Positions 3,581 through 39,334 of a stretch of 43,223 nt of DNA are shown one piece after another (within the stretch, counting starts at the first letter, position 1; each line of letters starts with the position of its first letter). The notes beneath the pieces are model-generated. The model ran no database searches. It was not told where the DNA came from and worked only from the letters and a program-made list of their open reading frames with translations. A program made the translations under genes and the position numbers. Origin of the DNA: Candidatus Gastranaerophilales bacterium (GTDB lineage: Bacteria; Cyanobacteriota; Vampirovibrionia; Gastranaerophilales; Gastranaerophilaceae); NCBI GenBank assembly GCA_944322665.1, contig CALUPM010000008.1, forward strand, positions 1 through 43,223. The letters run 5' to 3'.

Positions 3581-3661
3581 AAAACTAAACTCCTAACCTT
3601 TTATCGCTGCTACAATTATAGCAAAAATTTTGTAATATTGCAACTTTTCTGTAGAATTATT

Positions 3662-3873
3662 TGAACTTATATAACAAATTCCATTAAAAATTTCAAAACA
3701 CTGTCATCCTGAGGCGCACGGGTAAAGGGTAAAAGGCATAAACTGTGCCCGTTTATTGCGGGCGCGAAAGCCGAAGGATATCTTGAAAATGTGCAAGGGG
3801 ATTCTTCAGTCGCTTCGCTCCCTCAGAATGACGTGCTTTTTATAATATCTGTGGAATTTGCTATGTAAGTCGC
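3662..3873. mobile_element. MITE-like element, complete copy A
   Basis: A 212-bp non-coding element. Its ends are inverted repeats: CTTATATAACAAATTCC on the left, and on the right the complement of CTTACATAGCAAATTCC. It is flanked by the direct repeat GAATTATT (3654-3661 and 3874-3881), which looks like a target-site duplication. The interior has two inward-facing GTCAT(C/T)CTGAG modules joined by a spacer with the motif cgaaagccgaaggat. No transposase is encoded. Confidence 0.75.
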
Positions 3874-3885
3874 GAATTATTAAGA

Positions 3886-3913: not shown

Positions 3914-3956
3914 GTAGGTAATAAAAATGTTAGTCAAAATCTCTAACGGAGGGTTA

Positions 3957-4340
3957 ATGATAAAAAAAGTTTTCGGATTGGCAATATGTCTTACACTGAT
4001 GGCGCCTGCTGTTTTTGCGGAAGGCAGAGGAAACTCCAATAATTACGTTCCGCCGGAAGGCTACGGTCAGGATTTGAACAGTTTTATGTATATGGATTAC
4101 AAAAACAGCGAAGCGCAGGATGATGCGGATGATTACGCAATGCCCGTCCCGAAATTTTTCCAGCGCAACAAAGAAGAAGCTGCCGCAAAACGCGAACCGC
4201 ACGAGATTAAGAAAAATTCTGACGGAAGAATGAAAACAGCACCGATGAGTTATGACCAGTTCCCGCAGAATTACGACAGCAGCCAGCAGATGTTTATGAT
4301 GCAGAACAGCATGCAGGGAATGTACGGAATGCCTTTTTAG
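3957..4340 (+). CDS. Small secreted protein, Met/Gln-rich C-terminus
   Basis: A 127-residue protein with a clear signal peptide (about 1-21, cleavage VFA-EG). The mature part is hydrophilic, and its C-terminal 25 residues are very rich in Met, Gln, Asn and Ser (SQQMFMMQNSMQGMYGM). I do not recognise a family. The ATG at 3957 is preferred to one at 3927 because GGAGGG lies just upstream and the signal peptide starts there. Its stop overlaps the end of the convergent 4337-4906 gene by four bases. A periplasmic or surface location is inferred. Confidence 0.65.
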   Translation: MIKKVFGLAICLTLMAPAVFAEGRGNSNNYVPPEGYGQDLNSFMYMDYKNSEAQDDADDYAMPVPKFFQRNKEEAAAKREPHEIKKNSDGRMKTAPMSYDQFPQNYDSSQQMFMMQNSMQGMYGMPF

Positions 4341-9120: not shown

Positions 9121-9303
9121 GTCTAAGTCATTTCATTCTGAGGGAGTGAAACGACCGAAGAATCTTCTTGCGTTTCCGGAAGATCCTTCGGCTTTTCGCA
9201 CTCGCAGTAAACGGGTACGGCTAACGCCTTTCACCCTCTGCTCGTGCGCCTCAGGATGACGTAGTTTTGAAAATTTTTGGTAAAATTTGCTATATAAATC
9301 CCC
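9121..9303. mobile_element. MITE-like element, left end missing
   Basis: The right terminal repeat (AAATTTGCTATATAAATCCC, 9284-9303) and two GTCAT(T/C)CTGAG modules are present. No left terminal repeat is seen; the sequence passes directly into the CTTCACYC repeat at about 9120. It is probably a truncated copy of the family described at 3662, 30916, 31520 and 39105. Confidence 0.6.
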
Positions 9304-26710: not shown

Positions 26711-26737
26711 CCATACCATACCATACCATACCATACC
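26711..26737. repeat. Pentanucleotide tandem repeat (CCATA)5
   Basis: Five exact CCATA units followed by CC. It lies 90-116 bases upstream of the 26621 start codon of the EF-hand operon, in a promoter-distal position. Such repeats can change length by slipped-strand mispairing. Confidence 0.9.
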
Positions 26738-26819
26738 GCAGATTATAACAGGGTTTCAGGCATTTTTAAATTCATCTTTACATTTCGTTATATTTACACA
26801 TTATCCCTTTTATCTTTCC

Positions 26820-27296
26820 GTCATTCTAAGGACGCTAGTCCGAAGAATCCCACCGGATTTTAAGGGGATCCTTCGGCTTTTCGCACTCGCAGTAAACGGG
26901 TACGGCTGACGCCTTTGACTCTCTGCTCCTGCGCCTCAGGATGACGTCTCTTTTTTCATGTCATTCTGAGGGCGAAGCCCGAAGAATCTCCTCACTCCAC
27001 CTTGTCATTCTTAGCACTCTGCCGAACTAAACGCTTAAGTATCGTTTTGTAAGAGGACGAAGAATCCCCTTGCGATTTTAAGGAGATCCTTCGGCTGACG
27101 CCTCAGGATGACGTCCTGCTATTACATCATTCTGAGGGAGCGCAGCGACCGAAGAATCTGATGGCATTTTAAGGGGAACCTCCGGCTTTTCGCACTCGCA
27201 GTAAACGGGTACGGTGACGCCTTTCAGCCTCTGCTCGTACGCCTCAGAATGATGTGCTTTTTATAATATTAGCGGAATTTGCTGCATAAGTCCCAA
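26820..27296. repeat. GTCATTCTGAG (REP-like) cluster with a MITE right end
   Basis: Several GTCATTCTGAG...GAAGAATC modules are present in both orientations, with the CGCACTCGCAGTAAACGGG spacer at about 26880 and 27190. The cluster ends in GGAATTTGCTGCATAAGTCCC (27273-27293), the right terminal repeat of the MITE-like family. No left end was found. The segment 26956-27066 is almost identical to 34971-35081. No gene is seen. Confidence 0.75.
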
Positions 27297-30883: not shown

Positions 30884-30912
30884 AGGCGCTTTTAAATGAA
30901 GCGCCTTTTAAT
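30884..30912 (+). terminator. Hairpin terminator after the 30410 gene
   Basis: AGGCGCTT (30884-30891) pairs with AAGCGCCT (30899-30906), followed by TTTAATTT. The target-site-like repeat of MITE copy B begins inside its T tract at 30906. Confidence 0.7.
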
Positions 30913-30915
30913 TTG

Positions 30916-31118
30916 AACTTTATAGGAAATTCCACAAAAAATTTCAAAACAGCGTCGTCCTGAGCAGCACGAGCAGAGGGTGAAAGGTGTTAGCCGTACC
31001 CGTTTATCGCGGGTGCGAAAGCGAAGGATCCCATTAAAACGTAAGAAGATTCTTCGGGCTAAAGTCCTCAGAATGACGTGAGTTTTATAATATTTGTGGA
31101 ATTTGCTATATAAATCCT
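30916..31118. mobile_element. MITE-like element, complete copy B
   Basis: A 203-bp non-coding element with ends AACTTTATAGGAAATTCCAC and the complement of TTATATAGCAAATTCCAC. The flanking direct repeat TTTTAATTTG occurs at 30906-30915 and 31119-31128. The inside has inward-facing GTCGTCCTGAG and GTCATTCTGAG modules with the cgggtgcgaaagcgaaggatc spacer. Its right edge lies 13 bases from the stop of the Mini-III gene. Confidence 0.75.
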
Positions 31119-31131
31119 TTTTAATTTGGGT

Positions 31132-31494: not shown

Positions 31495-31519
31495 AGCCTT
31501 ATTTTACAACAAAATTAAA

Positions 31520-31812
31520 GGGACTAATATAGGAAATTCCACAAAAAATTTCAAAACAGCGTCATCCTGAGCCGCAAGCAAAGACACCCTTAAACCACAA
31601 GGGGATTCTTCGGACTGGCGTCCTCAGAATGAAGTAAAACCAATGATGTCATCCTGAGCCGCACGAACAGAGGGTGAAAGGCGTTAGCCACACCCGTTTA
31701 CCGCGAGTGCGAAGGCGAAGGATCCCCTGAAAACGTAAGGAGACTCTTCGGGCTAAAGCCCTTAGAATGACATGCTTTTTATAATATTTGTTGAATTTGC
31801 TATATAAATCCT
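31520..31812. mobile_element. MITE-like element, complete copy C
   Basis: A 293-bp element, the longest complete copy, carrying extra GTCATCCTGAG/AGAATGA modules. The ends are GGACTAATATAGGAAATTCC and the complement of GGATTTATATAGCAAATTC. The flanking direct repeat AAATTAAA is at 31512-31519 and 31813-31820. It lies between the divergent Mini-III and 31878 genes, within 20 bases of the Mini-III start, so it may influence its promoter. Confidence 0.75.
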
Positions 31813-31877
31813 AAATTAAATATATTGAAAAATCCTTTTATCCATGCAAAAATTTCTTTATATGAGAGGGGAATTTT

Positions 31878-34734: not shown

Positions 34735-35370
34735 CGGAATGACATACTATTTGAGGACGCCGGTTTGAAGAATCCCCTTGCGCGCTGCATGTCATTCTGA
34801 GCGGAGCGAAGAATTCCGCCGCACTACTCCTGCCATTCTGAGGAAGCGTAGTGACAGGAGAATCCACTTGCCGTTCCACATGTCATTGCGGGAGTCTTGC
34901 GACCGAAAAATCTCATTGCACTACTTAACGTCATTCTGAGGACTATCTCTGAGGAATCCCCCTGCCCTTGTCATGTCATTCTGAGGGCGAAGCCCGAAGA
35001 ATCTCCTCACGCCACCTTGTCATTCTTAGCGCTCTGCCGAACAAAACGCTTAAGTATCGTTTTGTAAGAGGACGAAGAATCTTATCGTGCTACTCTACGT
35101 CATTCTGAGGACGCTAGTCCGAAGAATCCCATTGATTTTTTAAGGGGATCCTCCGGTTTTTCGCACTCGCAGTAAACGGGTACGGCATACCTTTGACTCT
35201 CTGCCCGTGTGGCTCAGGATGACGTCCTACTATTACGTCATTCTGAGCAGAGCGAAGAATTCCATCGCGCGCTGCATGTCATTCTGAGGGAGTGTAACGA
35301 CCGAAGAATCTGATGGCGATTTTCAGGAGATCCTTCGCCTGCGGCTCAGGATGACATGCTATGACAAAAT
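34735..35370. repeat. Cluster of GTCATTCTGAG (REP-like) repeats
   Basis: About nine degenerate modules of GTCATTCTGAG...CGAAGAATC lie head to tail with variable spacers, ending in inverted CTCAGGATGAC modules with the CGCACTCGCAGTAAACGGG spacer. No MITE terminal repeats bound this cluster. No gene is present. The segment 34971-35081 duplicates 26956-27066 with three differences in 111 bases. Confidence 0.8.
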
Positions 35371-39069: not shown

Positions 39070-39104
39070 AATTTAAATGTTATCACAAATAAATTTACTT
39101 TTTG

Positions 39105-39255
39105 GGAACTTATGCAGCAAATTCCACAGACAATATTAAAATCCCGTCATTCTGAGGGCTTTAGCCCGAAGAATCTCATTTATTTAGATACTTCGCTAAC
39201 GCTCAGTATGACGTAGTTTTGAAAATTTTTGGCGGAATTTGCTATATAAATCCCG
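39105..39255. mobile_element. MITE-like element, complete copy D
   Basis: The shortest complete copy (151 bp). The ends are GGAACTTATGCAGCAAATTC and the complement of GGGATTTATATAGCAAATTC. The flanking direct repeat CTTTTTG is at 39098-39104 and 39256-39262. The inside holds one GTCATTCTGAG...GAAGAATC module and one inverted CGCTCAGTATGAC module. Confidence 0.75.
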
Positions 39256-39334
39256 CTTTTTGTCTGTTGCAATTTAAAAGTTTTATAATAAAATACATAA
39301 TTGTGAGTCGGAATATTAAACAAAATCCATAAAT

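Follow-up and report, generated by a model that had tools for sequence, protein, structure and literature searches.

The four short repeats described here from the window, by which we mean the whole 43,223-nucleotide stretch of DNA analysed, form together with their kin a genuine, lineage-restricted family of IS1595-type MITEs. They are very probably non-autonomous elements that were moved by a DDE_Tnp_IS1595 transposase from long transposons with the same ends. We observed directly the ends of the elements, their duplications and their empty sites, as well as long transposons in this order of bacteria that have matching ends and 8-bp duplications and encode such a transposase. IS1595-type transposition is the best explanation of the family because the terminal repeats, the 8-bp duplications and the long elements with matching ends all point to it.

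All four complete elements announced by an earlier note on this DNA are present where it placed them, on the forward strand, with terminal inverted repeats (consensus GGGACTTATATAGCAAATTCCAC) whose ends read GGGA(C/T)TTATATAGCAAATTCCAC inwards. The flanking direct repeats that it saw beside each of them are also there. Copy 1 (3662-3873, 212 bp) lies between two identical copies of GAATTATT (3654-3661 and 3874-3881; 8/8), and copy 3 (31520-31812, 293 bp), which holds two module pairs and has a fold z of -5.9, lies between two identical copies of AAATTAAA (31512-31519 and 31813-31820; 8/8). For copy 4 the start at 39105 stands, but the element ends at 39254 and not at 39255. Its 150 bp contain one module pair and fold into a single hairpin spanning the element from end to end (fold z -7.1), and its duplications, ACTTTTTG on the left (39097-39104) and GCTTTTTG on the right (39255-39262), differ by one mismatch (7/8). 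Copy 2 (30916-31118, 203 bp) is flanked by TTTTAATTTG on both sides (30906-30915 and 31119-31128) and is unscored in the fixed 8-bp frame because its left end is eroded.

We then considered the terminal repeat in the window and in the whole genome from which it comes (G000). The 18-bp core TTATATAGCAAATTCCAC, scanned with up to 3 mismatches, has 10 matches in the window versus 0.05 expected in shuffles, and the genome search suggested by the earlier note gave 81 matches (up to 2 mismatches) versus 0 for a reversed-pattern control. In the sequence stretches around these matches, a plain mismatch scan paired 41 short elements of 147-457 bp, clustering at 147-158, 185-191, 205-212, 272-296 and 409-457 bp. 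The MITEs are non-coding across this size range, with no transposase gene within them. An offset scan shows that the duplication is exactly 8 bp long and sits immediately outside GGGA...TCCC. The flanking 8-mers are identical at 6 or more of 8 bases in 33 of the 41 paired elements, as opposed to 54 of 1640 cross-pairings and to a maximum of 9 of 41 in 10,000 flank permutations, which upholds the target duplications of about 8 bp proposed earlier. These duplications are AT-rich (82% vs 64% in the flanks). Five copies of 207 bp are mutually 94-99% identical, and this similarity suggests that their spread is recent.

Empty sites were assessed by removing an element together with one of its two target copies, joining the flanks and aligning the result to congeners. 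The orthologous sites with a single target copy, on which the earlier note had made its reading depend, are present in congeners for three window elements, copies 1, 3 and 4. Copy 1 has its empty site in G001, G002, G010, G013 and G008. The joined flanks of copy 3 give a gapless junction in G001, G002 and G010 (AAATTAAA vs AAATGAAA), and against G004 and G007 one base is missing near the junction; those of copy 4 align to G002 without gaps over 86 bp across the junction, where the target itself has diverged. For copy 2, gene order in the congeners differs downstream of the neighbouring gene. Short length, inverted ends, a fixed duplication, absence of a transposase gene and many copies with empty sites thus make up the MITE-like anatomy that had been claimed.

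G007 (L243) has a MITE of its own, oppositely oriented, at nearly the site of copy 1, upstream of the orthologue of the window ORF at 3927-4340. The copy 1 site is empty in G004 and G013, which are closer relatives of G007. The G007 insertion is independent and may reflect either chance or a preferred target.

Profile searches with PF12762 and PF01610 (ISL3) in six MITE-bearing genomes gave no match, and the source was therefore sought outside them. Two spans bounded by terminal repeats that were candidates for autonomous elements, one of 2.2 kb in G004 (L200) and one of 9.4 kb in G007 (L201), turned out to consist of distinct MITEs. An exact scan of GGGAYTTATATAGCAAATTCC across about 85,000 species returned 67 loci. 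All the informatively titled ones come from Gastranaerophilales, including Candidatus Adamsella and Scatousia, which we take to belong to this order, and the rest are titled uncultured bacterium. Some of the scanned ends terminate transposons of 8-12 kb in which an IS1595-family transposase is encoded. Reading inwards from 190 distinct termini, most enter GTCATTCTGAG MITEs and one group enters long elements. A literature search for MITEs in Gastranaerophilales or Melainabacteria, or for the module sequence, turned up no relevant work.

One entire transposon of 11,672 bp is carried by CALUPH010000025.1 (loci L080/L087; the same sequence as G162 contig 25, L171). Its ends are identical to the family end at 26 of 26 positions, and the duplication TAATATTT is found on both sides. 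Its transposase matches PF12762 (E=7e-32) and NF033547 (E=1e-41), both above cut-off, while the N-terminal zinc ribbon PF12760 falls in the right place but below the Pfam cut-off (E 0.002-0.1). Boundaries could be set for twelve complete long elements, 2.2-11.7 kb in length, and every one of them has inverted ends and an 8/8 duplication. Autonomous elements with MITE-type ends (L171, L175 and others) reside in other genera of the order, so a transposase gene bracketed by the same ends, which the earlier note had proposed to look for, does exist and is of the IS1595 type. The sequence common to MITEs and long elements is limited to the end of about 26 bp.

Relatives of this transposase occur in 31 of 383 genomes of the order, with a single match in all but one of them, and none of the 383 searched gave a relative in the window's genus. 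Co-residence of MITEs and the IS1595 transposase is rare: the MITE-rich genomes G000, G007, G024, G029, G269, G060 and G057 are without it, and it is present in G087, where the gene has two internal stops, and in G313. In a search of the phylum, relatives outside the order are distant only (27-33% identity), and those on plasmids are at most about 42% identical, the best being in Bacteroides and Phocaeicola.

Most likely, judging from these sequences, the IS1595-type transposase of the long elements moved the MITE copies in trans. Action in trans, as the earlier note supposed, fits elements that are non-coding and have no transposase gene inside, in a genome where the matching family was not found. 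In such a mechanism, separate long transposons with the same ends of about 26 bp would encode the DDE_Tnp_IS1595 transposase, which would recognise the terminal inverted repeats of the short elements. These would insert into AT-rich sites, creating the 8-bp duplications, and would stay in place when the source transposon was lost from the lineage. Since most MITE-rich genomes have no such transposase, we infer that the source is usually gone or missing from draft assemblies, and that in the window's own lineage it has since been lost or is not covered by the draft genome.

The same absence of an IS1595 transposase from the window's genome is what another family would have in its favour. IS6 and IS256 have GG ends and duplications of 8-9 bp, and a family of this kind could have moved the MITEs, with the long IS1595 elements sharing their ends by convergence or by use of the same ends. 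We consider this improbable: ISL3 (PF01610) was searched for and is absent from the six MITE-bearing genomes, the transposase-bearing long elements found among the 190 distinct termini are of the IS1595 type only, and convergence is unlikely to yield a 26-bp end match together with an equal duplication length.

The long IS1595-type elements have a recurrent organization. In nine of them with more similar transposases (L171, L175, L176, L177, L178, L182, L183, L185 and L187), a DUF2130 gene lies at the left end and the transposase, with an ORF of 158-200 aa that has no confident Pfam match, at the right end; DUF2130 and this ORF may serve transposition. The cargo between the ends includes restriction-modification genes: an EcoRII-C endonuclease and a C5 methylase in L185, SinI and a C5 methylase in L176, NgoFVII, a C5 methylase and Vsr in L183, and a type IIG enzyme with an SNF2-like helicase in L171 and L175.

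A segment of about 195 bp bounded by 32-nt inverted repeats (L171:9111-9305 and L170:4886-5080) lies immediately upstream of the helicase/type IIG operon and next to the gene of a tyrosine recombinase. Two assemblies that share the insertion and its flank have this segment in opposite orientations, and it holds TTGACA-17-TATATT. The segment is probably a promoter whose inversion switches the restriction cargo. Comparable inverted repeats are found close to the recombinase gene in L175 and L187. With their restriction-modification cargo and what is probably an invertible promoter, the parent transposons are a more unusual finding than the MITEs.

The interior palindromes of the MITEs require a separate account. 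The earlier note had united the common GTCATTCTGAG repeats with the transposition mechanism, and this part of it does not hold. The genome G000 has 203 matches to the GTCATTCTGAG...GAAGAATC module pattern versus 81 terminal repeats, G014 has 43 modules and 3 terminal repeats, and G026 has 73 modules and no terminal repeat. In the window, 20 of the 29 GTCATTCTGAG module matches lie outside the four MITEs, nine of them in two blocks with one terminal repeat each and the others without any. A probable MITE remnant on the forward strand (9132-9302) retains the right terminal repeat (9280-9297), its left end not being found there, and a module cluster (26820-27294, forward strand) has one terminal repeat at its right end (27272-27289). 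About ten modules at 34791-35355, also on the forward strand, lie outside any MITE with no terminal repeat. Upstream of the module cluster, at 26719-26738, there is a short tandem run of ACCAT units. Because 20 of 29 modules lie outside MITEs and some relatives are rich in modules without the ends, the GTCATTCTGAG modules are a separate repeat whose spread is not explained by IS1595-type transposition.

A second MITE type shares the left end of the family and has a variant right end, GGGAATAATATACAAGTTTCCACTA, GTCACCCTGAA-type palindromes and 8-bp duplications (L116, L119, L084 and L139), the duplications matching 8/8 at L116:1375-1516, L119:1282-1429 and L084:1771-2072. As this type joins the same left end to another module, the termini seem to act as carriers of pre-existing palindromes. 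This is most simply read as capture of such palindromic repeats by IS1595-type termini on two or more occasions.

The interior GTCATTCTGAG palindromes are paired and also exist apart from terminal repeats, which could suggest a REP/BIME-like unit that a Y1 (RAYT) transposase or recombination has spread and of which the terminal repeats are an incidental part. For the MITEs this is very improbable, being contradicted by the exact 8-bp target duplications and the empty sites: recombination does not make these, and Y1 transposition is not known to. A search for a PF01797 (Y1/RAYT) gene in G000, G007, G024, G026 and G029 found none, and RAYT was rejected as the MITE mobiliser given its absence from the window's own genome. 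REP/BIME-type spread may nevertheless apply to the free modules. The AT-rich duplications might hint that the direct repeats and inverted ends arose by chance in AT-rich intergenic DNA, but this has a negligible probability against the permutation result above and the joined flanks that align over the junction to single-copy empty sites.

IS1595-type transposition thus remains our reading for the MITEs. It links an abundant repeat family of an uncultured gut lineage to a family of transposases and shows how MITEs can outlive their source. Tentatively, and with somewhat more doubt than confidence, we propose that the IS1595-type unit transposons of Gastranaerophilales form an undescribed lineage, having DUF2130 at one end, the transposase and accessory ORF at the other, and exchangeable, partly phase-variable restriction-modification cargo in between, and that their termini repeatedly recruit unrelated host palindromes (GTCATTCTGAG and GTCACCCTGAA types), which are amplified as MITEs and outlast the transposon. 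Transposons that carry defence genes and probably an invertible promoter switch would offer a testable route for the spread of restriction systems among gut bacteria.

Compared with known systems, the GTCATTCTGAG modules resemble REP/BIME sequences as paired intergenic palindromes, single and clustered. However, the module-rich G000, G007, G026 and G029 are without a Y1/RAYT gene, and the MITEs carry terminal repeats and target duplications. MITEPye1, which is moved in trans within the IS1182 family, is likewise short, non-coding and intergenic, with a stem-loop, inverted IS-like ends and direct repeats (PMC11578231). It differs in its transposase family and in having 1-3 copies per chromosome as opposed to tens here, and the source transposon of the window-type MITEs is found only in other genera. 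In the IS1595 family, 8-bp duplications usually flank the element, and the ends of the related Merlin elements have a conserved GG (PMC8101967); cargo-bearing IS1595 elements, including tISCpe8 and MTnSag1, are also known (PMC5704250). Our family agrees with IS1595 in the PF12762/NF033547 transposase domain, the inverted ends, the 8-bp duplications and the passenger genes of the long elements (PMC8101967, PMC5704250). The zinc ribbon, N-terminal in IS1595-type transposases except those of the IS1016 group, is weak in that of the long elements. Unlike that family, the window elements are only 150-293 bp long and without a transposase, and their long relatives carry restriction-modification cargo, DUF2130 and a small accessory ORF.
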